Shown: positions 12,519 through 39,669 of the stretch, one piece after another
Numbering within the stretch: the first letter of the stretch is position 1
How the letters are laid out: each line of letters begins with the position of its first letter
Origin: Branchiostoma lanceolatum
Lineage: Eukaryota > Chordata > Leptocardii > Amphioxiformes > Branchiostomatidae
Assembly (NCBI RefSeq): GCF_035083965.1
Contig: NC_089723.1
Coordinates: 33,855,193 to 33,919,192 of the forward strand
Length of the DNA: 64,000 nucleotides
Direction: 5' to 3'
The notes under the pieces: model-generated
Database searches by the model: none
What the model was told of the DNA's origin: nothing
The model's input: only the letters and a program-made list of their open reading frames with translations
Made by a program: the position numbers and the translations under genes

Positions 12519-12524
12519 TTTATT
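12519..12524 (-). terminator. Poly(A) signal of the chimeric channel gene
   Basis: AATAAA on the minus strand, 45 bases beyond the TGA stop of the last channel exon, fits a short 3' untranslated region. Confidence 0.6.
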
Positions 12525-12568: not shown

Positions 12569-15500
12569 TCAGTTTAAGCCTCGAGACCATATGAACAGGT
12601 AATATGACCAGAAACAGATGTTAAAGATTGAAAAGGCACCAACGAACACTATGCGGGTCACATGGTCAATCTGTTGGCTTACGTACACGTATACATCCGG
12701 GTCATTCATCTCAGAGTCACTGTCAATGACGTCAGAGGTTGCAACAGTGACGTCAGTCTCCATGCTGTCGTCTGTCGTGCTACTGGTATCGTCGGATGAC
12801 TTGCCGGTTGTATTCATGGTGTCGTATCCGGAGGTCTGGCTGTCTCCCTCACCATGCAGGTTGAGACTTTCCCCAGAGGCGATTTGAGGACGCGGCGGGC
12901 CCTCGCGAATGTTGCTCTCAGTTGGGATTGGGCTCCTGGATACATCCATTCCCGGCTCCGGGTGGATTTCCGCAACCGCTGCTGATGACGGTCCACCTGT
13001 CGCCTCGGTAGACGGGATGTAAGCGATTCTCCACCCCTCGCCGTCCGCTTGCTCCCACCAGATCCCGAGAGGACTCGAGTACTTCGCACGAGGGATGCAG
13101 ATCTTCAACTTTCGTGACTTCTTCTCTACCGGATGCTGCAGAGACAGAATCACAAAATGTTAGAATGAACGTTTTCAATACTGCTTACGTTCAGTGGTAA
13201 TGATGATGATACCAAGTGGGTGTGAAGGTTGCTAAAAGATTCAGAAGATAACTCTCACTCTGGTTTACCGTTCGGGTACCGCAGATACTGTATGAACCAC
13301 CTTTCTCCATTTTCCTACGCAGAGCCTCATCCGTGGCCTATACAATATACCTTGGGGAGGCTCTGCTAAACCGGACTGCGGTTTCCACTTTTGTGCACGT
13401 GAGCGTGGCCTCTTACCAGCTGCTAGCCAATCAGAGAATCTAAAGAAAACATTTAGGCGACTCTCTGATATGTTGACAGCTGGTTAGAGGCCACTTTCAC
13501 AATAGTGGAAACCTCAGCTCGGTTCAGCAGAGCCTGCCAAAAAGGTATAATGTATAGGCCGCGGGTAAGGCTCTGCGGAGGAGAATGCCTTTCTCCAACC
13601 TTCTCTGGTACCCTTGGTGGTCTCCATCAAAGGTATAGCAGATTTAATCCGAAAATCTCTTGGGATTCATTATCAAGATATTCTTTCATATCTTCCGTCC
13701 TCCCAGACTCGGCACAAATAAATTAGAATTTAGTGTCAGTATTTGGAATAGTTCATGCTATATTGTTATCCATTGTCTGTCCGTCTTTCATGTTACATGT
13801 ACTTGCAATTAGCCTACGGGTAATAACTTTCAATAAACTAATTAATTTAATCTAATAAAACCGCTTACCTCTAGCTTCTCCTCCCGTCTGCTGTAGATGT
13901 AGTAAACTACGATAGTTTCCATCAAGGCCAGGAGGATGAAGACGAGACAAACGATCAGCCAAATGTCTAGCGCTCTTGCAACGGACACCTGCGGGGTACA
14001 ACAAAAATACGAACCATCATTACATTGATGATGATGAGTTGTATTTTCACGTTCTTGCGCACACGTGCTAAATACAGTAGCTATACATTTACATCAAAGA
14101 CTAAAGGTGTAATAGTTTACTTGTAGTGTGATAGTGAAAAGGGGGAGAAACAAAGCAGTTAGGCATATAAAACTATGCTACCACTAACTGTACTGTTTAT
14201 CCGTCTCTTTCCTCTAAGTGAATATGTATATGAAAAACACAAAACAATTAAGCATATAAAGCTATGCTACCGCTAAATCTATTAAAGAAATTAATGGTGA
14301 AAGATTTCACGCAAGGTTGGTAGTGTTTTGAAAATCTGATGGGTTGGGGCAAGTACATAGAGGTGCAGTACATCTGTTGAAACCTTTGTTCTTATACACG
14401 TATGGCACATCGCTTAGGCAAAGGAAAAATTTTGTGTTTCTGTTACCCGACGGACCCTAGAAAAAAACTGCCGACCCTAGCCTTTTTTTGGTTGGCCACT
14501 GGCAAGGGGCATAAGATTTTCGATCTGGCATCTTAGTGCTGAAATTCAAAGCAGAATTCCTGCATTTCACACTGAGATTTAACAGATTTAGCCTTTAAAC
14601 AGTTGATGTAAGGGTGTGTACCGAGCACTGTACGTCTTTGCTCCCTACCCACCGACCATAATTGTTTGCAGGACCGTACTCAGAAACACAACATTTTTTT
14701 TCTCAAGCCTTATCTGTTTACTCACCCACAGGATCCTGTGCTTCAGGACGCCCTTAGAGATCATCACCAGGAGTGGGATGACGCCGAGAGTGATGCGGCC
14801 GGAGATGGCCTTCTGGTGCAGCGGCAGCCACGTCTGCAAGAGAGACGCCACCACCAGGATGAAGGACGGGATGAACGTGGTGGAGATGTAGATCCACAGC
14901 CGCCGGGTCATGCCCAGCTTCACGGATACCGTGGTGTAGCTGTTGGTGTCTGTAAACGGATCGCACACAATGTTAGCCTGAGTACCATCCTCCATAGTAA
15001 ATGCTGGATAAATCTTAAGCTTGCTAACCACGGAAAGTCAAAAGATTGAGCCAGCGGTACCGGTTACAGTGGAGGATGGTATCCAGGCTAACAGTGTCAA
15101 CACTTGTCACAAATCACATGCTGTTGAACAGAAGTTTGAACATTGGTTTAAACAAAGTGCCGAAGATATCATACCTCAGCGAAATATCTAGACCTTTTGT
15201 AAATTTTCTTGTTATAGTCATTATCACGAATTTCTCTCTAATTCTGTATATTTCCTGCCTTCCTGCGTGACTTTGGGCCCGGGCCAAGTTTGCGGCACTA
15301 ACCATTTTCCGCCTGGCATCCTGATATGCTGCATTGATTCAAATAACTGCGAACACACACCGTGACAAACAAACAAACAAACAAACAAACAAACAAACAA
15401 ACAAACACATAGACTAAAAACAAAATTGCGTTACCGTTACCTCGTGATACTGTTATACTATATACACTCAATGGACAAGAGCAAGCCTCTGAATGTCTTA

Positions 15501-18500
15501 CTGCCATACATTTGTGCAAGGCAAGTTTAATGCGAAATTTTCAAAGCTGCCAAACCTTTGTGAAGGTTGTTTGTGCTGCGTGCCACCCTGCGTGCCTCAT
15601 CGTGCACCCTCCGTTCTTCCTCTGGACAGTCGATCGTCTCCATTACACACTCCCCCACGGTCGTGCGGCAGTCCGCAGAACTGGCGAAGGGGCACGACTC
15701 GGCGTGGTATTCACACGACTGCTTGAAGTAATTGCAATCTGAAATAATTCGATAGTATGAGAAATACAGATGGAGACTCCGATCGGGATCTCTACCTGCA
15801 GATTGCCGATTCCAGTGAGAGATCCCGATCGGAGTCTGTTAATTCTAAGATATTCGCTTAAAAGACAGAACTTTTAAACTACGATTCGTGTCGCTTAAGA
15901 TGAATGAATTGACTCGAAATTTGGGATTTCATACAAATTTCATAAAAGACCACCCTAACATATTCCTAGCATCCTGATCAGTTTTCCCGTCGACGGAATC
16001 TCCAAGTGGGATCTCTGCCGGATCGCAATCTCTACCCTGATATACACTGTATATATGTATGAAGGTCTATCATGCATGCTTCTGACTTCGATGTAGACTA
16101 TAGCTAGCTGTTTCAAACTGACGTCTGTTATACGTAAAACCATATCCCATGAACAGGCTGGGGCACTGATTTCATTTGCACAGAAATTGGATATGCTACT
16201 TTACAATTTTTGATTGTCAATACAATATCGCTGTAATGGCATCATTTACAAACACTCATACCCGAGACGTTGGTGAGAAATGACCCCAAGGTCCCTGACA
16301 ACTGCACCCCTCCCAACATGAACTGAGACACCACCTCGGCGCTGTCAGTCTTAATCTGGTCCCGAGACGTGTCAGTGAAGGACACCAGTCGGAACCTGAC
16401 ACCGTCATCTGTAGGTAGAGTAAGCAAAAGGAAGAGGTAGGTAGAGGTAGCAAAAGGAAAACGTCATTACGTTATAGGGATGTCCCTGTAGCTCAATTGG
16501 TAGCAGCCTCACAGTTAGCTCCTGGTTCCAAGTAGTTGGCAATCGGGAGACCCCGGTTCGAATCCGGGGAAGGGCATCCTTTATTCCATGTTTGAATGTA
16601 AGAATTTGTATATTTGAATGTAATGTATTGTGTTTGGGAGGGCAACTTGTAAAGGTGCGCAAGCACCTGTTTTGCCCTCCCCTTCACTTTTGTGAAAAAT
16701 CAAAATAAACAAATAAACAAATCCTGGTTGGAGCTGCATTCATATTTCAGAAGGGACCCGTGACCGGGGGAGCACTGCAAAAGCCCCATTACTCAGATTG
16801 GTACCTACTGGCTGTGCTTTAGATGTATTATTCCGGTAACATTAGAAACAGGTGGTTAAGTATCCATATCTTATTCATCTAGTGACCATTAAATAAAGAG
16901 CACGCTTTTGTGTTTCTATTGACAGTTTAGGTCATTGTACGGCCATTGAGCTATCCAACTTTTGGCCGCGCAACGGTCTTCAACTATGTTGAAAGGGAGT
17001 ACTTACATCCATGAAGCGGCATGTTGCAGCCCTGGCTGTCAAATGGGAAGTGTTCAAACGTCACTCCCGGACAGGATACGTGTAGATCACGACTGCAAAG
17101 GCAAATCAAACAATTAATTAGAAAACAGTACAAGATATGGCCAACATAGGTAAGAAGTTTAGTTGTACGGTAGATCTTAAATTACTGTTAGTGGTTCTGT
17201 AGAAAGTTTTTTATGGGAGGCTTTGTTTTTGGTGTGTCGGTTTGTTGTGTTCTCGTGTGTCAATACGTAGATATTATCCAAATACACTGTCAGTAGAGAG
17301 GCAGGAAGTGAGTGGGACGATGATTTCACCGAAAAATCAGGCTTACAGAGTGACAGGAAGTATCTGACGTGACAGGTCATGGGGTCAATGGAAAAGGCTA
17401 CTAATTCACTGGGAGGTATTGTTTTTGGTCTGCCAGACTTTTCGTAGTTACATATTTCCCATGTGCTAGTTGCGTTCATTTAGGGTGTTTTTTTTGTAGC
17501 AGCGTCACAGTTGAGCTCAATTGAATGGTAACCGGGTGACCCCGGTTCTAATCCGGGGTAGGGCATCCTGGTTAGAGCTGCATTCGTCTTTCCGAAGGGA
17601 AATTCTGTTTGTCCCTGTGTACTCACATCATCCTGAAGACGATCAGCCCGCTCCTGTGTAGCCACAGGGATATACCGCTGTCCGACGAGCTCCCCCTGTC
17701 CACGATAGATGTACTTCTGACGTTCCGTCCGAAGCTGAGGGGCGGTGTCCACACTAGGTCCGGGGGGACGGGAACCCAGGAGGCGGTCAGACCCTTCAGT
17801 CGAGGATCAATCCAGGCCAGGACGTACTCGAGGGTCGTAGAAATATTCTGTAGGAAAAACAGACTGTATGACTCTGTATCTACGTCAGGCGTATTCTAAA
17901 AACTGGCCTAATCAATAATTGTTTTCTCATTCAGTTTATGGGTCAAGCACATAATACTCACAAATGTAAAACATGCTTTCGTCTGAACACAAAAATTGAC
18001 ATACTAAGTCCACACACAAATGCGGACATTCTGCTGCTGTGTCAAGGAAAGTCGCCAGGGGGCCCAGAATCTAATCATGTCTTTGACAGGACATAACCAC
18101 AAGCACATCAAGGTTCATGACAATCGATCCATCGCTTCTTAAGTTATTCTGCTAAACCACAAACATACATACATACATACATACATACATACATGCGTGC
18201 GTGCGTGCGTGCGTACGTACGTACATACGTACATACATACATACATACATACATACATACATACATACATACATACATACATACATACATACATACATAC
18301 ATACATACATACATACATAAAAACGCTACTTAAAGCATAACCTTATGGTGAAAGCACTAACGAATAGAAATAGCATTTGTAGCTACAGATAATGTCACAT
18401 AATATACTTACCACATGTTCATTATCAAGCCAGCCAAGACGTCGTACGTACACACTCGAAGCTACCTCCGACCATCTCTCAGTGTTGCTCTCTGAAAAGA

Positions 18501-19364
18501 CATGACACATTTCTTTACTTACTAATATATGTTCGTTTACGATGTACTGAATAAGATATAGACACTGTGATCTTTGGACACCTACTTAAATTGCCTTAGA
18601 CAAGTTAACGTCAAACATTGGTAGTCGGACTGGCAGAGCTTTACATACAGCTGCCTTCAAATAAACTACTTCTGTAATTAACAACATGAACGATAATGTG
18701 AATAGAGCAAGAAGAAGTGTCTCTTACCCCCGCTTGTTGGTCTCTTGTTCTTGTCATACCCTGGTGGTAGCTGTTCGCCTGTCTTCCACTGCTGCCATTC
18801 TGTCCAGCTGGCATTACCGTCACTCTCCGACTCCTCCGGGTTGTAGTCACCCTTTTGGAAATGGAAAAAGCAGACTCAATGCAACGTTTGGCCGTTTATA
18901 GCCACATTCAGTGGTTGCCTTGCATACGGTACATCGTGAGTTCGATCCCCGAACAAGGAATACCGAAGACTTTAATGATGGTACATACTGCTTTCTCCTT
19001 TCTTAGCACTCAGCATTTTGGAAAGAGTATGGAAGTTAAACACACACATAACTACCAGTGGACTAGCCCTCTGCTGTAGTGATTGCACAAAGTTGTGTGG
19101 CCCAAGGGCTACTGAAACGGAGATGGGCGCCGCCCCATGTACCATCTGGTAACTATAGCCAAATTTATGAAAAATAAGATGTCAACTCACGCTACCAAAT
19201 GGTCTCTCTCTTACTTGCAATTGTAACACTTACCGCAAGGTATTTATCCCATATGCCATCTCCGGCTGGTAAAGCATCAGCAGGATCGTTTGTAGCTGAT
19301 GCTGATACCGATGCGGCGGCGTGTGTGGGAGAAGGCTCTTCAGTCGTTGGGATGCAAGGAGTAT
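12569..19364 (-). CDS. Module 4 of chimera: complete Cys-loop ligand-gated ion channel subunit
   Basis: Ten exons. A Pro/Ser/Thr/Ala linker (19,234-19,364) leads to WTEWQQWKTGEQLPPGYDK, the first helix of the ectodomain. EYVLAWIDPRLKGLTASW, DLVWTPP and GISLWLHRSGLIVF follow, then the Cys-loop CPGVTFEHFPFDSQGC (17,007-17,092). A six-cysteine module (15,556-15,738) stands where loop C belongs. Exon 14,726-14,949 holds M1 (IPSFILVVASLLQTWLP) and M2 (SGRITLGVIPLLVMIS); exon 13,869-13,988 holds M3 (ALDIWLIVCLVFILLALMET). The last exon has a 150-residue Ser/Thr/Asp-rich loop and M4 (IFNICFWSYYLFIW). M2 and M3 resemble the glycine/GABA receptor branch, but the usual P-A-R before M2 is S-G-R. Its sister gene at 34,563-42,112 shares seven exon borders. 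Ligand unknown. Confidence 0.93.
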
Positions 19365-22300
19365 CTGCAATAGTATATTTCTTGATTTTAGATTGAAGAT
19401 TAATGAACTGCAAACTAGTGCGTATACAGAGACGTTGTGAAACGTTCTAGAAAATCTATTCCATTTTGGTCATTATTGTTGAATATTTTCGAAAACAATT
19501 CATTGTCAACTCATCTGCGTCATTGACAATGTTATTCTTTTCTTTCAAACACACTCAAAAATAAGTTAACCATCTGTTTGGGATCCGAATAATCTTTAGC
19601 TTCCTCAAGTGAGTTGATTCGTTTGCCTGATAAACAGTGTCTATACTCACTGTCAAAGCCGACCGGCCTCATCATCATAGTAGATCTCTTGAGTGAATAA
19701 CCAGCGCCCTTCCATGTGTGCCAGACAACGCCTTGAGACGGGTCACAATAAGGGTTACAATCTTTCAGGTACTTCCCGTTCAGAAACGCGTAGCCACAAC
19801 CTGGTGAGAATGAAGAAAAGGTCCATGTTACTGTCCGTCTCATTGAATGTATCTAAATATGGTAACATCACCACCAATGCCGAAGGCAGAAGAGGAAGAG
19901 TAGCAAGAGTAGGAGGACGGTAATCATTTGCTATTTACTCTTTAGGTTCATCGGTAATCCTTTGTCATACCGAGAAACATTGGGAAGGACTCGTATAGAC
20001 CTTATCGGTCTCCACCTTCCCCAGCACAGTCCTAGTGTATTTGCTTTTATGTCATACCTGGGCCTGATACGGGCGTTCCTGACCGTGTGATAATTTCCCG
20101 TATCACATAGGGTTCGGGCGTTGTATTACATGGGCTTCCATGGAATATTTCGAATGCATTTCGAGCGCGCCGGTTGCGCCGCCGCCGAGAATTCGAATAC
20201 CGGATTCGGAGGTTGGAATCGATGTTGTTACAGTTTTGTGTTCGAGGACACAAAACCTCCTCAACTTTTGGCCCATTCCGCATTGAAATGTGTGTTTTCT
20301 CGGGTGGGTATAACATAATAAACAAGAGTTCCGCGACCTCATATCTCCATGAAAAATTCTATTTATGCAAATGACTTACACATTTACATAATATATGCTT
20401 AATCCTAAACACATTTATCTTACTTACACATGCTGCAATATTGATAGTCCTATAATTTCCCAATTTGATGAGTTTCGGTGTTTTTGCATTAATTATGCAA
20501 ATCAGGAATTTATTTGCATAATTGGTATCTGTTGATGCTCCACTTTCCATAAACCACATATGTTACATGTATGTGAGTCTTATAATGGAAAACACTGCAA
20601 ATATAGATTTTCCTCGTTAGTTATGCAAATTGAGTCGCAATTTGCATAATTTGCACTTCATTGTGTACATCTCTGTCTAAGCTACCTGCATACTAAATAT
20701 GATGGAAATCCGTCTTTCCTTTGTTCAGTTATTCCCCTTAGAAGATTTTCACAATAACGCCACTGCAGTTCCATAGTAAGCTGCTAGGGGGCCCAAACCT
20801 ACACCATTTCTTAATTACATCACAAGCTATCTGCCACCCAAAAATCAAGACCATAGCACGTCCAGGTCAAAAGATACAAAAATTGAAGTTCTGCTGCAGT
20901 ACCAAGGTCACATACTAGGGGGCCCAAAATCGACCTTAAACTTTGGCTTTACAACACCTACCCACATACCAAATATCATCGTGATCCATCAAAAGGTTCC
21001 TGAGTTATGCTGACTACAGTAGTGCGGAAACACAAACAGACAGACAAACAAACAGACAAACAAACACACACACACAGACACACCCAAAACTATATCTCCA
21101 TTTTTCATGGAGATAAAAATACAACACGTTGTATTCCGCATCACCCTCGGCCCCAGCCCTCCCGCGCTCGGATCGCCCTCTGGCCTACGGCCGTCGGGCG
21201 ATCCTACCCGCGGGAGGGCTGGAACCTCGGGTGATACGGAATACCCCGTGATGTATTGCTTTTATCCGTGCAAAATTAAGAATAGAACAGATCAGAACAG
21301 ATTAGAATAGAATATAGTAGAATAGAATAGAATAGAATAAAATAGAATAGAATAGAATACAATACAATACAATAGAATACAATACAATAGAATACAATAG
21401 CATAGTATGAGGAGGCTCGGCACATTCCTCAACATTCTGTCTTACCTGTCATCCTCATGTCTTACCTGGAGGATACCACCACCCGCCTTCACTGTAAGTT
21501 GTCGCACAGTTGAACTCTTCATTGTCGTCGTTCTTGACGTCAAAGGTCGAGAACTGTTGGCCGTTGGCGTTGTACCGTCCCTCCGGGGCCAGGCTGTCTC
21601 CTGCGTCACCCGCAAAATCTCCGATCTGAAAATTAATTCATGGACAAAAAATGAAATGATAGTAACAGCTCTCTACACTCTTTCCACAAACCCGTTCATG
21701 CTGCTTAGTCTTACATCATCTGAGTTTATTACTTTGGTAAACTATTCACAATATGATTACACATTTGATGCGGAAGGGGAGGAGGGAGGAACGGATGACG
21801 TTTAGACAACTACGTCAGAAGGACAACAAAATCCGTATCGTACCTCCAACGCGTAGAAAGAAGTTACGTCACCGACGTTGAACGTCCCGTAGGTCGCCTC
21901 AGCGACGTTTCCGTCCCAGTCCTCGAGCTCGATGATCAGCTGGTAGTCCGAAGATGACGTCAGGCGATGGGCTTTCTCCAAACCCATCCACACCTCTGCG
22001 TTTGGATCGCCGAATCCGCCCTGGTAGTCACTCCACGGCCTCCCAAAGTCAACCGACCCGTCCAGGCGTCGTTGCAAGATGGTGGACCCACAGTTCAGAG
22101 TCGTCATGCGACAGTAGACTTCGAACGGAGGGTGTCCCACGGAGTAGACGCCATCTTGTCGTTCTCCGGACGCGAACAGGTCGGCGCAGTCCATAGGTCC
22201 GCTCGGCGGAAGACAGTCCTCGGCTGGGTAGGGATGGATGAGGGGAAAGAAAGAGTGAACAATATGAGAGGTGGGCTCTGATAGGTATTTGTTGTAACAG

Positions 22301-25300
22301 GGTTCAACGTTTAGCCGTAAGCTATGTATTCTCCCACACAGAACCTCTCAATCGGCCTATACAAAATACCTTGGGGAGGCTCTGTCGCGTCACGTTTGGT
22401 GCTTTGTCACGTTTGATGCCTAGGCACGGTTTGTGACAGTGCCCGTGTGTCACAAACCGTGCCTGGGACAAAAGCACGGTTTGTGACACTCGGACACCGT
22501 CACGAATGGTGCCCAGCCGAGCACGGTTCGTGACACACAGGGGGTCTTATCCCATACTGTGCTTTTGGGCGGAACTTAGTGTTTTGAGGGGGAGGAGTCT
22601 GTCCAACGCGTTTTTTCCCTGCAGCCCGCCATCTTTGTTTTTTTCGGGGCGCTGGGATGAGAAATAATCAGCGTAATTCTCGCTCATTGAAATACATTTC
22701 GCGCTTGTCTTGGATGATTTGGACTTAGAGTTGATGTGGCACAAACAGACGGACGTCTCATCACGAATTTCTACAACAGAAATCCGTCCCGAACCCTTCC
22801 ATTCACGACTGTGTCCTGAGGCACGGTTCGTGACAGTGCCGGAGTGTCACAAACCGTGCTTTTGCCCCAGGCACGGTTTGTGACACTCGGGCACTGTCAC
22901 AAACTCTGCCCAGGCACGGATTGTGACAGTGCCTGAGTGTCATAAGCCGTGCCTGGGGCAAAAGCACAGCTTGTGACACTCCGGCACTGTCACGAACCGT
23001 GCCTGGACAGTGCCCGGGGCTACAACTTCCCGTAGCATTGATTTAGATCGGGCGAGCTGACTGCCTCGGACGTCGAAGTAATCGGCAAGTGGCCCGATCC
23101 TAGTCTAGATCTGGTTTCCCTGGATAGAATATATTTAGTCGTTCAAATTGTTTTTTAGCATCTGCTATAGACACTGTCTTTTTGTGCCACTTCGATTCTA
23201 GGTCTAAGTTATTCAATTATTTTACAGAGCGAGAATTACGCTGTTCCTCCTTAACTCAGCGCCCCAAAAAAACAAAGATGACGGGGGGTGGGGGGCTACT
23301 GCGGTAAACAAAAACACGCTGCCTTATATGGAAACGCGGGCATCACGTCCCGTCAGTCACAGTGATTGACAGCACTTCCGGGCACAGTCTGTGACGGTCG
23401 GGCTGTGTCACGTTCTGTGCCTGGGAAAGCATCGTCTGTGACAGGCATCGTCTGTGACGGTATAGGCTCTGCTAAAGATAGCTAAGGTTTCCACTCAAAA
23501 TTGTGGGCTTGGCCTCTATCTAACCAGCTGTCAGCGCAGCCAATCAGAGAATCCCCTAGATATTTCTTTATATAAAGCTGATTCTCTGATTGACTGACAG
23601 CTGACGGAGGCCACGCTCACGCCCACAAAAGTGGAAACGTCAGCCCGGTTTATCAGAGCCATCTTCAAGGTATATTGTATAGGCCGCGCGGGAGAGGCTC
23701 TGCGTAGGAGGATTAAGGTATAAGGAAGTACTAACCTTGTGGCCTGATCATCATGAGAGTTTTCCGCAGAGAATAGCCCGCGCCCCTCCACGTCTGCCAC
23801 ACGACGCCCTGCGACGGGTCACAGTGGGGGTTGCAGTCATCAGTCAGATACTTCCCATTCAGGTAGGCATATCCACATCCTGCAGAAAGAAAAGTCAGAA
23901 TTCGTGATAACAAAAATCGTAAGAATATGTCGAGGATGTACATGTAGTATCTAACTCAATTGTGCGTTGAAGATCTGTATGCTTCATTTTCTTCTTTTTT
24001 TACTTAATGGTCATTACGTAACGAAACGCGAAGGCCACTTCAAGTGTTACAGGTTACATGAATAGGCCTGTAACAGCATCTATTCATTTTCCACTTTGTG
24101 AGAAATATCGTGATTGAGACAAGCTCAACTCACTGAAAGTGAGGACTGGCTGACCCAATAGCAGAAGCGTGGGATTACGAATGCTGCTCGGGAATTTCTC
24201 TACTCCATTTTGAAGTCTTTTGGTATTTTCCTTATCAAATAATTCGTTAATTAACCTCTTCAACATCTTAAGGACAATGAATTCATGTGTAAGAAAGATT
24301 AAGACTATAGAAAATCGCACCTGGGGGATACCACCACCCGCCCCCGCTGTACGCCTCGGCGCAGTTGAAGACGGTGTTGTCGTCATTTTGGCGATCTGTA
24401 GTAGTGAACATCTTCCCGCTGGAGTCATAGCGTCCCACCGGACCCATGCTATCTCCTGCGTTACCGGCGTAGGCGTCAATCTGTGGGCAAATAGGCAGGA
24501 AAATTACTTACTACGTGAGACTACGTGAATGGGTGTGAGAAAAACGTCTAAACCGAAATGTTAACCATCTGTCCATGCCCCCTCTCTCGACTTGACGGCG
24601 ATCGCTGAATGACCGGACAGCGACCCGACCAAATTGGATTTGTGTGACCCTTGGTTTCATGATTGGAATTCGATACAAGATTAAAAGTATGATTCAAAAG
24701 TAGGCAAAACACACGAAACGTACAAGAATTCGTTCTTTTTCTATGAAATTCGTTGCGGAATCTGTCAAATCTTTGATCGACAGAGAGAGAGGGTGTTAGA
24801 AACTGCATATTTCCTATAAAACAAAGATGTCAAACAAAAGATAACAAAATGAGAGTCAAAGCGACATAATACATGTTTGTACCGTCAACTGGTAATTGGT
24901 GTCCTCTGCTCCAACGGAGAACACGGAGTAGCTTGCGTGAGCCGTCACACCGTTCCAGTCTTCCAACAGGACGTGGAGCATGTGACTCCGTCTGGAAGAA
25001 ATGACGCTGATGTTCTTCAACCCCAGCCACATCTCTCCGTCCAAGTCTCCGAAGCCGTTCTCGTAGTCGCTCCACTCCCTCTCGAAGTCCAGGGAGCCGG
25101 ACAGGCGGCGTTGAATGATGGTTCCGCCGCACCCAGACGGATCCATGTCGCACCAGATGTCGAAAGGCGGGTCGTCCACGGCGTAGATGCCGTCATCCCG
25201 GGACCCCTTCGCGAACCAGTCGGCGCAGTCCCTCGGGGGTGGTGGGTCCGGGGGACATGCTATTTGGAAAAGTTTTCAACATTATCTAGTTCCTTTTTTA

Positions 25301-28300
25301 TTTCATTTACCATGCAAAAGCCCGTATCTCAATCGACCCGCGGCACATTGGCGGCGTCGCTGCCCCCTAAACTGGATTTGTGTTACCCTTGACTTTACAA
25401 TGGGAACATCACGCAAAAGGTAAGATAACAAAACACACAAAGCTTAAAAAGGCTCGTTTTCTATCGATGAAATTCGTTGACCGCGCCGTCAAATCGCCCG
25501 GTCGCAGCGAGGTCGCTAACGTGCCGCGGGTTCAGTGAGAAATGGGCTTACGTAATCCCCTAAAGCCGGCGTCACACAGCAGGAAAATCGTTCGCACGAC
25601 GAGTTTAAGAGCTCAAGGGGAATGCGACCGGTGTCCTCTCGATCACTGCGCGAGTTTTGGGGGTTGACCGTTGTTTACAGGTCATTGAACCCCGTCTTCA
25701 GTAACAGGCCTAGGGTAGATTTTCAGGCAAAAAAACCCGATTGATTTATTCTGGTGATTTTTAAATTCTGCGACCTTCTGGCGATCACCAGTTCAAGTTC
25801 GGGTAAAGGTCGTTTAGACCTAAATTCAACGCGGCACTCGGTAACAACTAGACGCAGTGAGCTAGTCGGTGCGAGCACCGGGAGGTACAGACTTACGTTT
25901 GATTAGACCTCCGTGGAAACCGTACGTCTCCGTGTCAGAGGAGCCGCTCACGGTAATGTCTGCAGAAATCACAACGATGCATAAACCATAAGAAAGATGG
26001 CAATGATTGATAGAAGATCCAATAGCATAAAACGTTTAATTTCTAATCTTATGTCATTTTGGTACCTTATGTCAAAATTCAAAAACATTTTCGAAGTACC
26101 TAAAGTAGCTAGTGAGTTAGTGTTTCAAAATCCTCGTATACACATGCGCAGTAAAAACACGCAATGAGGATGACACTGCAAGTGTTAAAAGCCAAGGCCA
26201 GTATCTTGTCTCTAAAGACAGGGGATGTAAACACACAAAAGTACAACACTGACCATACGTAGCTGTCCCAGAACTGTGCAGAAGTGTATGACCCCCTTCA
26301 GAAATGTCAGTACAGCCGGTTGAGAACCCGCTCAGCAGAATTGGCGTCCAAACGATGGGCGGGTCCAAAGGTACACCGTTCAACTCAAACCCTGAGGTTT
26401 CCTAAGAAATAGCAAAAAAATAGAAGTCAACACGTGAAATATCAAATTGTCTCTATTTGTTTTGTTAACATTTAGCATCGTTTTCCTAGTAAACAGCAAT
26501 TGCTTCTTTTCTGGTGTCATCTGCAGATAAGTCTACATCAACGAATAATTTCATTGACAACGTCTGGTTATGAAAAAAACTAAGACACGGGAAACTTGAA
26601 AAAATCTGTGAATGTGAATTCTGGATATCGTGATGCCTTAATGTCCAATGCCCATCACAGTCAGTCATTTTTTTAAATCAAGTCAGCCACTCAGAATTGA
26701 CGCTGTATGAATCCGGAGTTCTGTAGGATAACCAATCTAAGAAACCGACATGATGCCCTTTTCACACAGCAGGAAAATCAATCGGGCTGTAAATGACATT
26801 TTCTGCAGTGATACGCGCGAATTTTAGAGACCATTCGATGTTCCCTGGTCCCCGAGCCCCGTCCAATGTCATGTGGTAGATTTTTAGGACAAAATTGAGT
26901 TTGAGTCACCGGCAATTTTTAGATACGGCGATCTTCTGACAATAGACAAATATGGCCCGAGCTCGAGCTCGTCGACTGTGTGACAGGGTAGCCTCTACCA
27001 GGCTTCGTGGATCGCTGGGAAAATAGTAGATATTGGCCAAATAGACTGAAGAGTAAATAGTAATAGTATGCTAAGTGAGTCGGCTACGGAGAGAAGGCCC
27101 AATAGACGACTGGACTCTCTTTCCGTAGCCTACTCCCTTAGCATACTATTTACTCTATTGGTTGATTTCTACTATTTTTGTCAGCGATCCACGGAGCCTG
27201 GTAGAGGCTATGATAGGGTCATCAGGACGGCAGCTAAGTTTTGCCCTCGTGTATGAGAACCTCCTCACCTGTGATACGATGCAGAGTTTGTGGACGTGTG
27301 TCCCGGGTCCCTTCAGGTCTATCGTTGTGAAGGTGTACGTGTCGTGGTAAAACTCCACCGGAGGAATAGTCTTCATGTACGGCTCAGAATCACTCGTACT
27401 GAAATAAACAAAGCAGCACCAGTGTTGTATTTTGTGAAATACATTCAGACTGGGAAAACCCGTAAGGATGATAGTTATAGATAGGCAGATTATTGAAAAG
27501 AAAGGGAGCTGGAAAAGGCAATACATAGCATTACACGGAAGAAATTGCTCCGTGACGTCATTTTTTACATGACTGTGTACTAGTAATAACCCCATTCTCC
27601 AAGCATATCATCTGGTGGCAGAATCGTGCCAAAAAACGGGTCCAGTAGGCCAGAAGGGGTCTACTGGACAGTGTCTGTGCCTATATAAATATTCTGTCAC
27701 TGGAAGATCTGCTTTTAGGTTAGTAATCACCTTATCTGTACCACCATGACGGGAGCAGTTGATTCAATCTCCTTAAACTCGTCAGCAGGGACATCGAAGT
27801 CCAGATACTCCCCTGGTTGCAGAGTCGTCGTATCATCACCGATGGTAACCTGCAAAGTCAGACAACAAATCCAACATTATTTTCTGCACAGGCGTCAATG
27901 TAACTGTCATGTCCGTTATCGCCCAGGTAGAAAATCATGACCTCTTTTTACGACTCTCTAGAGGCATATTACAACGCACTTCACGACGCATGTATTCTTT
28001 GTCAAAGAGATGGTGATATGAAGCACCCTTGGCAGACAGTACTAAAAAACAGTGGTTTTTATTGGTCAGAAATTACCCGCAATTGCAGTCTTTCTAGTGC
28101 TGAATTGGTGCAGGGTTATATATGTTGTGTATTATATTTCACATAATACACAACATATACATATCTTATCCACACTTGCATTTTGTGGAACTGTCGCAAG
28201 GGTCTAGGCGGCTGCCATTTGGCGCCACCAGGTGACCTCAATACGACCTTCCCCAACCGAAGTCAGTTACCCATTTACACCTGGGTGGAGTGAGGAAAGT

Positions 28301-31300
28301 CGTGTAAAGTGCCTTTCCCAAGGGCACGAGATCGGTGACAGGACAGGATTCGAACTCGGGACCACTTGGTTCTGAGCCGAACGCTCTGCCGTTGCGCCAC
28401 ACGACACCACATGGCTAGATGTCTATGGCGTTTTTCTAAGATATCATAGAAACTTAAACTCTCCTTTCTTCTATACGACTTGATATGGCGCCCCTGGCCC
28501 CATCGATGTTGTGTCCTTGGGAAAGGCACTTAACACGACTTTCATCACTCCAGCCAGGTGCAAAAATTGGTATCTGAGGGCGATGTGAAAGGTAGTGGAA
28601 GGATGACAACCCACTGCCCTTACGGCCTCCAAAAGGCCACGGTACTACCTTTACATCGTCAAACTTACTGTTCTCTGTATATGGCACTGTTAAAATAAGT
28701 TTTAAAACTTAAGTGCAGTGCCACATTGTCATTGTCTGTCTAGAAGCAAGTTTTTTTGTTTAAACTTGATAATGATATGGTACCATATACGTGCCTCGGT
28801 GTCAGGACTGGCAGCCACAACGCGGAAACGGCCGTCTGCGCCCCGGCCTTGCACCCCGTCCTGTATGGCCAGGTACTCCGTGCCCCACGAGTCCAGCGGG
28901 AGGACCTGGGCACTCCTCAGGCTACCGCTCACCACAGCTACCGGCGCGCTCGATGAAACGTGGGACCCTAAGGAGAATGGTTTATCATTTACCAATTGTT
29001 AACATCGATTTAGATATATATGCAAACAATAACAATACTGTGACATCAAAGTCGCACGAAGACCTACGATGTTTGTGACCACGCCATTAGAGGTGGCAGA
29101 GAATTCGCTTTTGAACTTTCGATCGATCTCAATGGCAAAATATTTGATTGATTAGTTAAGGAGGTTTATTTGCAAGTTCTTGCCCGAGGGCTGATTGCAA
29201 CATGAAACAATACATAGAAAAGGTGTACAGTTAGTGCAAGTTAACGATGGTGACAAGTGGAGCAATCTAAGAGCTGCTACGGAATACAATCTAAGCTTTT
29301 GGGTTTGTTTTCTTATTCAATGAAGCGTACCGGTTAAGTCCCCGGCAGCCTGGACCTGCAGCCCCTCATGTTCTCCCAGCTCGACATCAAAAGACGTTCC
29401 AGCGGTGTAGGCCGTACCGTCAAACGTCACGTCTTGAGTGGGAGTGATGGTGACAGTTGTGTCGGGGAAGGCGCTGATCACACCAAATTCTGTCATTCAA
29501 GTGGACAGTAGTGTTCAGTTAAAGGAAACCCGATGCAGTCGTTATCAACAGACTTTATTTACTACAAATGAACATCAATAATTGTCCTGCTAGAGTCTAT
29601 GATTTGTTGTGAAGAGCAAAACAAAATGGAACGATCGCCGGACCTGATATTGAAGAAAAAAGTATCTTAGACATAGTGCATATAATGCAACAGATCGGTC
29701 TCACAGTTATTCGGTTTGTTCTGACTAAAACCTTGGTATAACTAACACTGTGACAGTATACCATCACACATGATTATCATCATAGGATGATGTGTAGTTT
29801 CCTGGGTTCTGTTATAGATTCCAACATTAACATGCAGTAGTTCTCATTCATTCGTTAAGTCCCGTTGTAGTGCCCAGTGGCACATAGTGCAGCAAGTTTC
29901 CAAGGTTGCTGTTTCAGTAGTAGGGTATATTTATAGGAATGGGCTGCTAGCCATTTCCCTTACAGTACCCGAGGCAATTCCACGAACACGGTAACCTGAT
30001 TTTATGTCCCTTCCGAAAGACGGGTGCAGTCCCAACCTTCCCAGGATTGACCTTCCCAGGATTTTAACCGTGGTCTTCTAGTTACTTAAGCCCCCCTCTC
30101 ACTGGACCCGCAGCACGCCGGCGGCGTCGCTGCTGCCGATCGAATTGACAAAGCACTCAACGAATTTCATCGACAAAAAATAATATTCTTAAGCTTTGTG
30201 TGTTTTGTTGTCTTTTGGGCCATACTTGTGAGTTGTGAATGATATTCCCATTATAAAGTCAAGGGTAACACAAATCCAGTTTAGGACGCAGCGACACCGC
30301 CAGCGTGCCGTGGGTTCAGTGAGGGGGGGGGGTTAATTGATTGGAACAAGAAGCTCAACTGTGAGGCTGCTTCTAGTTGAGCTACAGGCACATCCCTGCA
30401 TGCAGTAGTTAGGGCCATTAGAATTGTAATCTTTCAAGTATTACCTGATAGTTGTCCAGAGGCGCTGTAGCTGGGGATGTAATATTCGCTGCCGAGGAAT
30501 GTAATCGGCAGAGCCCTATAGGTGCCTGTGATGAGCCCCGGTTCGCCGGAAACAGACAGGACGCTGATGTCTTTGTCGGAAGTGACGTACACAGCTTTGT
30601 TGTCGGGTTGACTGCCGCTCATCTCGACCGAGCTCCGAGGCAACGTGACTATCACTTTCTGTAAAGTTAAGTATTACTTTCTGTGTTAGTAAAGTGACAT
30701 GCCTTCCTGTTTTACATTTTGTATCAGACTTTGCATCAACACGAAATGGTGTCATTGAAAATAGGTCCATGTGATTTTCTGCTTTATGGCTGATCTGTTA
30801 CAACCCCTTTCCACCAGTGTCTACGACCAAACATTTGACAGATCGATAACAGGATTTCTTGGACAAAGAACGAATTTAAAATAAAGGTTCGTGTGTCTTG
30901 TTGTCTTTCAGGGCTTTTAGATAGTGAATCATATTTCAATCATAAAAGAAAGGACCACATAAATCCAACAACGGTCGCCGTCTGTTAGAAAGGGGGATTT
31001 TCGTCTATGTATTTATGTTGTACTCAACTGGTCTGCAGTCATGTGGAATCTTTGAAAGGGGTGCAGAATATGACTTATCAAGCTATTAAAACAAGGAAAG
31101 ATGTTTACTGTTTTTCCAACTCAAGTCAACTTCAACAAGACCAAAGCATGTCCAGAGCAAAGGGTACACAAACCATAAGCTCTGCTACAGTACGAGGGAA
31201 AGTCTTCAGGAGTCCAACAATCTTCCATTACTTGTCTTATCAAGACCTATCCACATGCAAAATATCATCATAATCCATCCAGAGGCTCTTAAGTTATGCT

Positions 31301-32527
31301 GACCACAAATATCCGGAAGCACAAACACGCAGACAAACACGCAGCCAGACCCCCCACCCCCACCCAGCCCACCAAAAAAAATACCTCCATCTTAATGGAG
31401 GTAACATCACCAGAGGTCTTACCTGATTTGGACTCACGTCCACGGTTGTGCTCCATCCATCCGCCGGGGCCTCTATGGTCACTGATGTCTGAGAGTCGCT
31501 TGTTATGTAGAGCCGTGGCTCGTTATTGAAGGTTTCCAGAAAGGACAACACAAAATCTTTGCCTTTCGTGGTCAGGCATCCTTGAAGAAATAAACGGACA
31601 AATTCAGATTTCTGGTTTTGTAAACGATGATGAACACGAGACAATATGTGGGAGAAAAATTAAAATGATTTCCGACCTAAACAAATGAGATAAATGTCTA
31701 TCTTGTTATGGTATGTAGGAAAAATAATATAGTGACTACTGTTAGTTTCATACGAATGAGCAATAATATGGTGAGCCATGTTAATCTTTATTTGCTGGAT
31801 TTTACTACAAGTACCTTTTTGAGTCGAATAGACTCATTTCATATCAATGTTGAAGGCAAAATTATAGGCTCAACGGACTCTATATTAACAGACAAAGTAT
31901 GTATCGAGGATGGATTCAAGGTTGACACAAATGTCTGACTGTGAAAACGTTTTCCTTCGACCTGAAATCCTGCGTGTGAGTAGCCCGTTTCTGTCTTTTT
32001 TATTACCATGTGATCACATTCACCGTAAGCCGCCATACCATTTTATCAATATCGTATATTTTTAAGCAGGCTGCGACAGAACCAAAAACCTACAAGGAGC
32101 AAGGAAAGCCTTTCCCCTAACAAAACAGTTTGAATCACCGTCGTCACAAGAAAGCCCTGAGTTTTCGATCGCACGACGATTGCGATTTGTCCTCAGACAT
32201 TGTAGTCGTATCAAAGTCCAACTTGTCTGCAGGACGAACGAATTTCCTCCAATACACCAATGGTATCCCCCCACCCACGACACCCATGCCATTTAATTTA
32301 CATGCTATATTGACCTGTCATATTGAGAGATTGTATCTCTCTCCCCCACACATCTTACCCCTCCCCTTCCGATAGATGAATAAAGGCTAAGTGTCCAAGT
32401 ACACAATGAAAGCGTTTCATGATAAAGAGTATTGGCACCTACCTTCGCAAGAAAGAAATCCGTTTCCGAGGAAACAGAGCAAAGTTGCCAACACGATCCA
32501 ATGTCTCGACATGACTACTATGGCCAT
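12569..32527 (-). CDS. Chimeric receptor: IgGFc-binding domain, two fibrinogen domains and a Cys-loop ion channel (about 1,500 aa)
   Basis: Twenty-five exons fit in one frame: 32443-32527, 31423-31580, 30445-30658, 29331-29489, 28795-28967, 27731-27849, 27269-27398, 26254-26401, 25897-25959, 24883-25259, 24321-24480, 23736-23879, 21844-22223, 21466-21625, 19651-19800, 19234-19364, 18728-18851, 18412-18491, 17627-17847, 17007-17092, 16262-16408, 15556-15738, 14726-14949, 13869-13988, 12569-13135. They sum to 4,503 bases (1,500 codons plus stop) with matching phases at every junction. Order: signal peptide 1-27, IgGFc-type domain 29-395, spacer to 416, fibrinogen domains 417-643 and 644-873, linker to 917, channel 918-1,500. 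All introns are GT-AG except that after 28,795, which needs a GC donor. The module junctions are phase 1, as expected of shuffled domains. No in-frame stop, poly(A) signal or new signal peptide separates the parts. The alternative is two adjacent genes; a spanning transcript would settle it. Confidence 0.78.
13311..13590. mobile_element. Foldback element, AGGCTCTGC family
   Basis: Long imperfect inverted repeat: CCTACGCAGAGCCT and GGCCTATACAATATACCTT at the left are mirrored by AAGGTATAATGTATAGGCC and AGGCTCTGCGGAGG at the right, with inner arms around GGTTTCCACTTTTGTG and CACAATAGTGGAAACC. A related copy frames 22,328-23,713. It lies in the last intron of the chimeric gene. Confidence 0.8.
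15364..15407 (+). repeat. (ACAA)n microsatellite
   Basis: About eleven head-to-tail copies of a 4-base unit in an intron of the chimeric gene. Confidence 0.95.
15766..15838. repeat. Hairpin, AGACTCCGATCGGGATCTCT arms
   Basis: The arm AGACTCCGATCGGGATCTCT at about 15,774 is repeated in perfect inversion (AGAGATCCCGATCGGAGTCT) about 40 bases later. It sits just upstream of the cysteine-rich channel exon's acceptor. Confidence 0.85.
16479..16722 (+). mobile_element. tRNA-derived SINE
   Basis: A box TAGCTCAATTGG (16,489-16,500) and B box GGTTCGAATCC (16,555-16,565) of an internal RNA polymerase III promoter are followed by a short body and an A-rich tail (AAATAAACAAATAAACAAAT). It is not a functional tRNA because no cloverleaf acceptor stem closes around the boxes. 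Related heads lie at 17,500-17,600 (plus) and 30,335-30,395 (minus). Confidence 0.8.
17500..17605 (+). mobile_element. SINE fragment
   Basis: Diverged copy of the SINE at 16,479: GACCCCGGTTCTAATCCGGGG, with the 3' neighbour GGGCATCCTGGTTAGAGCTGC also seen at 16,721-16,738. It lies directly beside the exon ending at 17,627. Confidence 0.7.
18164..18320 (+). repeat. (ACAT)n microsatellite with GCGT interruption
   Basis: About 150 bases of a 4-base repeat in an intron of the chimeric channel gene, with a short run of GCGT units in the middle. Confidence 0.95.
19651..22223 (-). CDS. Module 3 of chimera: fibrinogen-related domain 2
   Basis: Exons 21,844-22,223, 21,466-21,625 and 19,651-19,800, with the same sizes and phases as domain 1 (380/160/150 against 377/160/144 bases), so the two arose by tandem duplication. 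Signatures are MDCADLFASGERQDGVYSV, STILQRRLDGSVDF, EVWMGLEK, LEDWDGNVAEATYG, STFDVKNDDNEEFNC, WWYPPG, CGYAFLNGKYL and GAGYSLKRSTMMMRPV. After MRPV, where secreted fibrinogen proteins usually stop, the frame runs four codons more into a strong GTGAGT donor that joins in phase 1 to the linker exon at 19,364. The 1.7-kb intron after 21,466 contains a complete MITE. Confidence 0.95.
20338..21116 (+). mobile_element. Complete MITE with CTCCAT terminal inverted repeats
   Basis: About 780 bases. The left end (TATCTCCATGAAAAAT) is inverted at the right end (ATTTTTCATGGAGATA), where the last 23 bases also form their own small hairpin. Homologous copies lie at 8,436, 10,030 and 31,130, and a solo end near 63,080. 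There is no coding region, so it is a non-autonomous DNA transposon, here inside the intron that splits fibrinogen domain 2. Confidence 0.85.
21128..21246. repeat. Long GC-rich palindrome
   Basis: GTATTCCGCATCACCCTCGG and CCAGCCCTCCCGCG on the left pair with CGCGGGAGGGCTGG and GGGTGATACGGAATACC on the right, around a short GC-rich loop. It abuts the right end of the MITE. Confidence 0.85.
21295..21405 (+). repeat. (AATAG)n-like satellite
   Basis: Degenerate 5-base repeat of AATAG/AATAC units, about 60 bases upstream of the exon end at 21,466. Confidence 0.9.
22328..23713. mobile_element. Foldback element of the AGGCTCTGC family, split by a later insertion
   Basis: The outer ends (GGCCTATACAAAATACCTT at 22,354 and AAGGTATATTGTATAGGCC near 23,668) match the family copy at 13,311-13,590. 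The left arm stops at 22,384 and resumes at 23,464, interrupted by another element. It lies in the intron between the two fibrinogen modules. Confidence 0.82.
22385..23463. mobile_element. Nested non-autonomous transposon with alternating 14-bp repeat arrays
   Basis: The insertion is bounded by an 8-base direct repeat AGGCTCTG (22,377-22,384 and 23,464-23,471), a target-site duplication of the length typical of the hAT superfamily. Three arrays (22,389-22,534, 22,821-23,002, 23,392-23,458) carry about 7, 8 and 4 copies of GCACGGTTTGTGAC or variants, nearly always alternating in orientation. The central part also contains a long inverted repeat (about 22,600-22,745 against 23,185-23,330, with CATCTTTGTTTTTTT and CAGCGTAATTCTCGCTC arms). 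No coding capacity is visible. Confidence 0.82.
23736..25259 (-). CDS. Module 2 of chimera: fibrinogen-related domain 1
   Basis: Three exons, 24,883-25,259, 24,321-24,480 and 23,736-23,879, flanked by phase-1 introns. The domain opens PCPPDPPPPRDCADW and holds the classic signatures: DGIYAV, FDIWCDM, TIIQRRLSGSLDF, WSDYENGFGD, EMWLGL, LEDWNG, GDS, the calcium-loop-like TTTDRQNDDN, a Cys pair near NC/GCGYAYLNGKY, and the terminal GAGYSLRKTLMMIRP. Length of about 227 residues is full for a fibrinogen C-terminal domain, known in ficolins, tenascins and invertebrate FREPs as a ligand-recognition fold. The split over three exons is identical in the second copy. Confidence 0.95.
24576..24794. mobile_element. 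MITE, CCCTCTCTCGA ends
   Basis: Ends CCCCCTCTCTCGAC and GACAGAGAGAGAGGG are inverted. The interior (TGGATTTGTGTGACCCTT) is shared with 25,320-25,550 and, inverted, with 30,089-30,334. Confidence 0.75.
25320..25550. mobile_element. MITE, GACCCGCGGCACATTGGCGG ends
   Basis: Left end TCGACCCGCGGCAC and right end GTGCCGCGGGTTCAGTGAG are inverted; the interior resembles the element at 24,576. Intronic, just upstream of the fibrinogen domain 1 acceptor. Confidence 0.78.
25565..25830. repeat. Interspersed repeat, copy 1 (CACACAGCAGGAAAATC)
   Basis: Shares CACACAGCAGGAAAATC, GTAGATTTT and GGCGATC blocks in the same order with 26,765-26,990. Unclassified interspersed repeat. Confidence 0.65.
25897..32527 (-). 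CDS. Module 1 of chimera: signal peptide and IgGFc-binding-protein N-terminal-type domain
   Basis: Nine exons. The first (ATG at 32,527; a second Met is five codons on) has a hydrophobic core WIVLATLLCFLGNGFLS. The next begins GCLTTKGKDFVLSFLETF, close to the G-x-D-F-x-x-x-F-L opening of the IgGFc_binding family (FCGBP and bacterial surface relatives). Further family-like signatures are SVTIEAPADGW, VYVTSDKDISVLS, PLDSWGTEYLA, GRFRVVAASPD and the TLQPGEYLDFDVP strand pair. The family is extracellular and linked to mucus and immunoglobulin or microbial binding. Length (about 365 residues) is normal. The last small exon (25,897-25,959) is a spacer that hands over to the fibrinogen domain in phase 1. 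Confidence 0.88.
26765..26985. repeat. Interspersed repeat, copy 2 (CACACAGCAGGAAAATC)
   Basis: Second copy of the repeat at 25,565, sharing the blocks listed there. Confidence 0.65.
26993..27210. mobile_element. 217-base near-perfect foldback element
   Basis: CTCTACCAGGCTTCGTGGATCG on the left is mirrored by CGATCCACGGAGCCTGGTAG on the right, and TAGTATGCTAAG by TTAGCATACTA further in. Almost the whole element pairs with itself. It ends about 60 bases from the exon at 27,269. Confidence 0.88.
28250..28425 (-). mobile_element. tRNA-derived SINE, minus strand
   Basis: On the minus strand TGGCGCAACGG (A box, 28,389-28,399) and GAGTTCGAATCC (B box, 28,346-28,357) are followed by the body CCTTGGGAAAGGCACTTTAC. 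The same body reappears in plus orientation at 28,512-28,640. It lies in an intron of the chimeric gene. Confidence 0.82.
28497..28640 (+). mobile_element. SINE body fragment, plus strand
   Basis: CCTTGGGAAAGGCACTTAAC matches the body of the inverted SINE at 28,250-28,425, giving a head-to-head SINE pair that could fold in the pre-mRNA. Confidence 0.75.
28793..28794 (-). other. Probable GC splice donor
   Basis: The exon at 28,795-28,967 must end in phase 0 to join the exon opening at 27,849. The GT at hand (GCAC|GTATAT) gives phase 1 and a stop after a few codons. ACCGAG|GCACGT gives the right phase and restores the domain sequence DTE-VTIGDD, so a GC-AG intron is the best reading. Confidence 0.6.
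30089..30334. mobile_element. MITE with CCCCCCTCTCACTGGACCCG ends
   Basis: The left end is inverted at the right as GGGTTCAGTGAGGGGGG, and inner arms CGGCGGCGTCGCTGC and GCAGCGACACCGCC also pair. Interior shared with 25,320 in inverted orientation. Confidence 0.85.
31130..31405 (+). mobile_element. MITE of the CTCCAT-end family, truncated copy
   Basis: Right part of the family at 20,338: CCACATGCAAAATATCATC, then CCGGAAGCACAAACACGCAG and the closing hairpin ACCTCCATCTTAATGGAGGT, ending about 18 bases from the exon at 31,423. Confidence 0.8.
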
Positions 32528-37500: not shown

Positions 37501-39634
37501 CACCTTTTTCTATTATGTCATGACTACGCCATAAAGAAACTGAAACAGCAACGATTTCTGATATTCCTAGAATAAGCTAGGACTTTGACTCAGTGATAGA
37601 GAGCGAAACCAACCGTTGTTTTCGTCACAGCTGTGAAGTTTGTGTGAACACCGTCCCACGCTGCTTTTACACTCCTGGCAGACCTGGTCATCGCGACAGG
37701 AGGCAGCGTCCAGACAATGTTCAACGTCATGGTCACACTTCTCGCTGAAGTACTCACAGCCTGCAACAGAAGGCGACACATGGGCTTGTGATTTCCATCT
37801 ATCTACCAAATGAACATAATTGTGATAGTGATATTTGTCCGTGGTATCACTCTATGAGACGAATATTCTTGTTCTGTTCAGCACCAAGGAAACATACTAG
37901 TCATTGACATGGACAGGGAAGCATAGTCAGCACCAGGGACAGGGAAACGCAGTCAGCACCAGGTACAAGGAAACGATGTCAGCACCAAGGATAGGGAACA
38001 CAGTTAGCACCAAGGACAGAGAAACACAGTCAGCACTAGGGACAGGGAAAATTGAATTGATTAGCATAGAAAGCTTCGTCGTATCTCCGTCATGCATTTA
38101 TCCCCCACTCGATTAACAGACATACCTGGCCCATCGGTCAGAAAAGAGTCCCTTTCTATTCTGATTTCCACCGCTGTCAGCATGAACTGTGACCTCACAG
38201 CTGTGGCGTCTGCGGTGATGGGAGCCTGACTACTTGTATTGGACGGCAGGACGTTAAACCTAACGCCATTATCTGTTGATTAAACGGAAAAGATGTAGGG
38301 GTCAATGAAAAGGCTTCTTCTTCTATTTCGATGTTCATAGTCAATGGTAAACATCAGGCCACCTTGGACTCTGACCCTAGGGCATACGATGTTTCTGTGC
38401 ACAAATACTACACATAATCTCGATGATACGTGTGCTAGTAAGCTACGTAGCGGCACCCATGCCACCTGAAGCGGTAGACACTTGTATATTTTGATTATAG
38501 CAGTGATAATGAATGATATGTTAGGATCCGTACTTACATCCGTGCAGTTTCACACTACACACTTGTGAATCGAAGGGATACCGCCACAGTTGAACACTAC
38601 ATGTAAGCTTCAAGGCACGACTGCAGCAACATGAATTACAAATAGATCACGTAAGTAAAAACAATGAGAAAAAAACTAAGTACAGAAAGAAAACAACACA
38701 ATCCATTTTAAACTTGTTAGGCACTAACTAAAAGAAATGTAACGCAATCACCTACTAACTGATCTTACGTGGAGTTTCTTTCTATAATTGAGAATATGAC
38801 CAGTGATCTGATGTAGTCAAAGAAATGTAACGTTAAATGTACTTTTAGTTCAAATTTCATCATACTTCTTATTTCTGGAGATGACAAAAATACTTAGTTA
38901 TGGTATTTTAAGATTCTTTTAGGATTAAGTGTAGTAAGGAGCTACAGCACAAATACTCTTCGAACAAAAATATAAGTAACGTTAACTAGAGCACAAATAC
39001 TCTTCAAACCATGGGCGATAGGCCATCGAGTTTTTGTGGAAATCGCTGTTGCTTTGTGCACTCAACACACACTGGGTATTCAGTATGCTGAATCAAATGA
39101 TAAACACGCACTGGGTACTCGGTCCGCTGCGTCGTTCTTGTCAGAGGGAAAGTTCGCGCAAAGGCCGACGGGAGTAGAACAGGTTTCGCAGTTTGCGCGA
39201 ACGCGTTCGCGAACCCGCTGTTCGAACCGACAAAACCGCCAGGGCCCGGGGGCTAACACTTCACTAGCTTCATAAAAATTCTTGTTCTTAACACTATCTA
39301 AAGCGTTCGGAAATCACTGTTCGGCTCTCGGCAATCTTCGGTAGACTTCGGCATCCGTTCGTGTGATTCTTTCGAATAGACGGCGGATCGGGCGTTGTGG
39401 TTGTTACAGTTAGTGTACGATTCTCGGGAATCATTCAGTGGATCAAGTACACAGGTAGTGCGGATCGGGCGTTGTGGTTGTTACAGTTAGTGTACGATTG
39501 TCGGGAATCTTTCAGTGGATCGATTACACAGTGCGTGTTAAAGTAAGTTCTCGGGAATCTTTCAGTAGGCCGAGTCACTTAGTCTACGATTCACCGAAAC
39601 CTTTCTCTTTGTTTGTTTCTTAGCGGATCATCGG

Positions 39635-39669
<35 letters not shown>

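Follow-up and report, generated by a model that had tools for sequence, protein, structure and literature searches.

A lancelet gene predicted to join an IgGFc-binding and fibrinogen-related head to a Cys-loop channel subunit

Animal Cys-loop receptors are described as stereotypic in layout, while additional sensory heads occur in their bacterial relatives (PMC549065, 2004, in excerpt). In bacterial multidomain pentameric channels such as DeCLIC, the extra sensory domains lie N-terminal to the ligand-binding domain; these channels are prokaryotic, their heads are of the jelly-roll, PBP-I, Cache or MCP-N kind, and the sensing proposed for them is of small molecules or calcium (excerpts of PMC549065 and PMC12664993). 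The excerpt of PMC12664993 calls DeCLIC the only pentameric channel with a partly characterised N-terminal domain, and associations with extra domains have so far been genomic only, according to the accessible part of PMC4795631. For lancelets, the available sections of PMC4967905 argue that many domain innovations are prediction errors, and describe one fusion, modelled alike in two species, that was refuted by ESTs; they also list 269420_PRF0, a novel Branchiostoma-only architecture with Neur_chan_memb that is present in two lancelets.

Here we describe a locus of Branchiostoma lanceolatum in a 64-kb window (the whole stretch of DNA that was analysed, 64,000 nt), which likely encodes a fused subunit, predicted on a well-supported single open frame, with an IgGFc_binding module and two fibrinogen-related domains (FReD1 and FReD2) in front of a Cys-loop channel. 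Like the bacterial channels, it would carry its additional domains N-terminal to the ligand-binding domain. A Cys-loop membrane domain is common to the locus and to 269420_PRF0 (the comparison, from the accessible text of PMC4967905, concerns that domain alone); the latter may or may not be its orthologue, and the gene is thus possibly already present in predicted proteomes. The preliminary description of this DNA knew of no channel with this order of domains, which is not contradicted among the literature matches listed, as far as their excerpts go, within the limits set by the bacterial channels with N-terminal domains and by 269420_PRF0. No channel combining these domains was named among the matches listed from the open-licence literature, and PMC6071037, PMC4284660, PMC12373286 and PMC6526094 gave no hit for fibrinogen or Neur_chan in their main text.

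Exon structure and domain content of the locus

Twenty-five exons between positions 32527 and 12569 of the minus strand, joined by script, gave 4,503 nt and 1,500 codons with one stop, which is terminal. The parts follow each other in the order signal peptide, IgGFc_binding, FReD1, FReD2, short linker and complete Cys-loop subunit; the claim of the preliminary description that they share one 1,500-codon frame without an internal stop is borne out by the single terminal stop and by the Pfam matches. The 25 exons, their span and the minus strand are confirmed; its further claim that the phases match at all junctions holds only with a GC donor at exon 5 (28795), the one exception to the GT-AG borders of the other 23 of the 24 introns. 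The end of exon 5 was placed there because the GT donor at 28791 shifts the frame, so that codon 269 becomes a stop. Also rejected were two GT donors within exon 5 that keep the frame (with them the IgGFc_binding score falls from 159 to 136 bits, by about 23 bits).

Exon 1 (32443..32527) contains the start codon and the signal peptide, as seen in the joined frame and the hydrophobicity profile, and ends in phase 1. It is followed by three modules that begin and end in phase 1: exons 2-9 (25897..31580) with the IgGFc_binding module (aa 29-417; frame, Pfam and the comparison of donors at exon 5), exons 10-12 (23736..25259) with FReD1 and exons 13-15 (19651..22223) with FReD2 (both from frame, Pfam and PDB matches). 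Exon 16 (19234..19364) encodes in the open frame a linker rich in S, T, A and P and free of Met; it enters in phase 1 and leaves in phase 0, and is regarded as a phase adapter between FReD2 and the channel, because exon 15 (phase 1 out) cannot join exon 17 (phase 0). Frame, Pfam and hydrophobicity place the ligand-binding domain, a Cys-rich insertion in loop C, M1 and M2 in exons 17-23 (14726..18851), and M3, the cytoplasmic loop, M4 and the stop in exons 24-25 (12569..13988), with an AATAAA at 12524.

In the head, IgGFc_binding (PF17517) was matched at aa 130-392 above the curated Pfam cut-off (E 1.4e-45; 156 bits in the whole protein and 159 bits for the module alone, cut-off 25.6). The module is the one found in the IgGFc-binding protein family (FCGBP-type), here in one copy only; neither a mucin nor a VWD domain was matched by Pfam in this protein, and a PDB search at E 0.001 found no solved homologue of the module. 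Fibrinogen_C was matched in two stretches above the curated cut-off (E 7.8e-120), with FReD1 spanning Pfam positions 2-221 of 221, and the two copies are 57% identical. The best PDB matches were FIBCD1 and angiopoietin-1 for FReD1 and ANGPTL4 for FReD2; unlike these and other fibrinogen-related proteins (angiopoietins, ficolins), the FReDs are here fused upstream of an ion channel. We take the calcium site of a FReD to be an Asp pair and its acetyl pocket to be Tyr/His/Tyr. When FReD1 was aligned to FIBCD1, and FReD2 read through its alignment to FReD1, both copies kept the first Asp but had Gln or Lys for the second, and kept the first Tyr of the pocket with the His and the second Tyr changed. 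Acetyl-sugar binding of the ficolin kind is therefore not supported, since the residues of the two sites are only partly kept. Intron 12, between the two FReD modules, contains at 22405-23006 a repeat of 93-95 nt in three copies, which also form inverted repeats; in the two longest of these the arms measure 109 nt (86% complementary) and 92 nt (91%), and the arrangement resembles a foldback element.

The channel half was matched above the curated cut-offs by Neur_chan_LBD at aa 944-1108 (E 2.9e-11) and by Neur_chan_memb at aa 1222-1488 (E 9.7e-17). M1-M4 lie in aa 1215-1494 (M1 was reported as two overlapping rows), and together with the signal peptide they are the only segments above the hydrophobicity threshold, M2 barely so (1.61 against 1.6). 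The whole head would therefore be extracellular, and the ectodomain would comprise about 1,190 residues if the gene model is right, in place of the roughly 220 residues stereotypic for animals. GlyR and GABA-A subunits made up all of the best 60 of 120 PDB matches to the channel half, which has in common with them M1-M4, the FPFD motif in the Cys-loop and an arginine at the foot of M2. It differs from them, apart from its ectodomain, in three features: C1066 and C1081 enclose 14 residues and not the canonical 13; M2 begins with Ser-Gly-Arg, aligned to the Pro-Ala-Arg of GlyR that marks the anion-selective GlyR/GABA-A channels; and the insertion in loop C (15738-15556, minus strand) carries six cysteines between residues 1138 and 1174, spaced about 7 apart, and matched no Pfam domain.

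A paralogous Cys-loop gene of conventional layout lies in tandem upstream of the putative fused gene (34563..42112, minus strand; Pfam and alignment). Its signal-peptide exon (42112..41954) connects straight to the counterpart of exon 17, its last exon was read by eye at 34841..34563, and Pfam found in it only the two channel families, with no match to FReD or IgGFc. Its Cys-loop encloses 13 residues with YPFD; its M2 begins with Ala-Gly-Arg, also without the Pro-Ala of GlyR before the arginine, and its loop C has a Cys-rich insertion as well (37760-37614, minus strand). The channel part and the sister are 49.2% identical over 388 aligned positions. Since dN is well below dS both between these two (0.46 and 1.99) and between FReD1 and FReD2 (0.36 and 1.29), the channel and FReD parts look selected, in figures that cover these two parts alone and in which dS is near saturation. 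Exon 10 of the sister (35848-35672) and its last exon (34841-34563), both on the minus strand, contain two similar cytoplasmic-loop segments of the form ...IPRP/A...W...QW..., which by eye look as if an exon had been duplicated.

Elsewhere in the window, open frames on the opposite strand at 44238-50400 (plus) resemble a secreted Cys-rich module present twice; one fragment of this stretch scores 27.8 bits for COLFI, above the cut-off of 26.2, and narrowly misses that for Fibrinogen_C. Open frames at 57113-59462 (minus strand) look like those of an SLC17-type transporter, and the fragments of them that were tried had no Pfam match. Among the neighbouring open frames, Pfam matched one of eight in one set and none of five in another, and scans of the 64 kb for tRNAs and Rfam families found none.

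Proposed origin of the putative fused gene and possible roles of the head

We consider it probable, from the open frame, the domains and the exon phases, that the locus is a single exon-shuffled gene encoding the head and a Cys-loop channel subunit, the unusual GC donor of exon 5 being one point against it. A subunit gene of the GlyR/GABA-A type would have been duplicated in tandem beside its conventional sister, and the IgGFc_binding module and a doubled fibrinogen module would have been inserted, by way of phase-1 introns, behind the exon for the signal peptide and ahead of the linker exon, giving a predicted product with about 1,190 extracellular residues against the usual 220 or so. Exons of the 1-1 class are reported to be enriched among the shuffled exons of lancelets, at 51% of the shuffled domain exons between two species (these are single exons, not multi-exon modules; PMC4284660, in excerpt). 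In our gene model 13 of the 24 introns are in phase 1, and for this reason the phase-1 module borders are consistent with shuffling rather than a proof of it; the chance that all four borders are in phase 1 is by simple arithmetic about 0.07, which is only mildly unusual. Such subunits would most likely form pentamers, alone or with headless subunits (the sister, or a splice form of the gene itself that joins exon 1 to exon 16), and the head would bind a large extracellular partner (matrix, mucus or a microbial surface) and then either modulate or trigger gating via the short linker attached to the N-terminal helix of the ligand-binding domain, or position the channel. For the preliminary description, the putative ligand was a microbe, glycan or mucin whose binding would be turned directly into ion flux.

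Two further readings are compatible with a single fused gene. Tentatively, but as a serious possibility, the head may have no part in gating and only anchor or cluster the subunit in matrix or mucus, the pore being opened by a small ligand at the ordinary pocket. FReD and IgGFc_binding domains are in general adhesion or matrix modules, which favours such an anchoring role. The Cys-rich insertion in loop C speaks against it, because it changes the lid of the ordinary pocket, so that an ordinary agonist is not assured. Also counted in its favour is that the extra N-terminal domain of DeCLIC appears to speed gating, according to the excerpt of PMC12664993.

It is somewhat doubtful, yet conceivable, that the main product of the locus is a conventional channel, with exon 1 spliced directly to exon 16, and that the head is an alternative cassette included rarely or in certain tissues. 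All modules between exon 1 and exon 16 being 1-1, such a splice is predicted to keep the frame and to yield a conventional channel, and the headless sister shows this layout within the same family. The open frame kept by the head exons and a dN well below dS between the two FReDs nevertheless argue that these exons are used. Rather improbable, as a more far-reaching version of the fused subunit, is a germline-encoded pattern-recognition channel, i.e., a pentamer bearing as many as five IgGFc domains and ten fibrinogen domains, which would bind a multivalent surface (microbial, mucus or matrix) and open the pore directly, possibly with the headless splice form as a version for an ordinary agonist.

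The junction between the fibrinogen-related and channel parts

The alternative to a single gene is that of two adjoining genes, one for a secreted IgGFc-FReD-FReD protein and one for a Cys-loop subunit whose first exon has escaped detection, a reading that we regard as unlikely. In its favour, such fusions are a known failure mode of lancelet gene models (PMC4967905, in its available sections), and the sister channel gene has a signal-peptide exon of its own. The splice sites at the junction also score low (on a matrix taken from the window itself, 2.9 bits for the donor of exon 15, at the 83rd percentile of GTs, and 2.2 bits for the acceptor of exon 16, at the 78th percentile of AGs), and reading through the exon 15 donor gives 39 codons and then a stop, a possible secreted end; accepted internal sites that score as low or lower exist (e.g., the acceptors of exons 4, 8 and 10). 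Against two genes, the halves are separated by only 286 nt (intron 15, 19651/19364, the third shortest of the 24), in which neither AATAAA nor ATTAAA occurs and three weaker poly(A) variants are present. The preliminary description had reported no poly(A) signal between the parts. This is correct for the canonical hexamers in the FReD2/linker intron but too strong as a general statement: the IgGFc/FReD1 intron contains AATAAA twice (25750 and 25302) and intron 16 contains ATTAAA once (18976); further AATAAA hexamers lie in other introns (e.g., at 21730 and 20514 within FReD2).

The absence of a start for the channel half likewise argues against two genes. Its first 184 codons contain no Met, the first in-frame Met from the linker onwards being M1058, and a start inside exon 16 or 17 was rejected for lack of a Met; exon 16 extended upstream meets an in-frame stop without an ATG. 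Separate first exons were sought as frames of at least 45 nt with an ATG, no stop and a GT donor that scores 2 bits or more and leaves the required phase, using a donor matrix learned from the same window; the only positive controls were the window's two true signal peptides (hydrophobicity 2.72 and 2.39), and a signal peptide split over two exons would be missed. Between 24320 and 18852, 27 frames qualified for exon 16 and 33 for exon 17, with top hydrophobicities of 1.93 and 1.68, so that none in this stretch is as hydrophobic as either true signal peptide; a split signal peptide or an upstream exon with a weak donor would escape. In control stretches, sites with hydrophobicity 2.39 and a 2-bit donor occurred at 0.08-0.33 per kb and phase, a rate that predicts about 0.5-1.8 in 24.3-18.85 kb, and finding none is thus fairly often expected by chance. 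Weak by itself, the empty scan takes away a candidate for the rival reading and is no proof of the join.

Over the 14 kb from 32800 to 18852, the scan gave 71 phase-1 candidates (exon 16) and 64 phase-0 candidates (exon 17). With hydrophobicity of at least 2.0 there remained nine rows for exon 16, three of which are the start codons of exon 1 itself, and three for exon 17; six of the nine and two of the three have weak donors and lie upstream of 26.3 kb. Raising the limits to a hydrophobicity of 2.39 and a donor score of 6 bits left just exon 1 and a frame that runs to the exon-7 donor. A separate signal-peptide exon joining to 19,364 or to 18,851, which had been proposed as a refutation of the fusion, thus has as its sole strong-donor candidate in the right phase exon 1 itself in the first case, and in the second the frame at the exon-7 donor, which carries IgGFc exon 7; weaker-donor candidates exist for both. 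The statement that no new signal peptide lies between the parts can be kept between exon 11 and exon 17, where none is as hydrophobic, and has to be qualified farther upstream by the weak-donor candidates. The DNA is better read as a single gene than as two, because the frame is open through all the parts, the channel half has no start and there is no convincing signal-peptide exon nearby.

Should the fused gene be real, an immune-type recognition head would sit on a channel of the neurotransmitter-receptor kind, and a cell could convert contact with a large molecule or a microbe into an electrical signal. This chordate case would then show that animals can rebuild sensory-headed channels by exon shuffling, and a module of immune or matrix recognition would be tied straight to a membrane current. 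The locus also provides a clear test of whether the domain fusions of lancelets are real or prediction errors.
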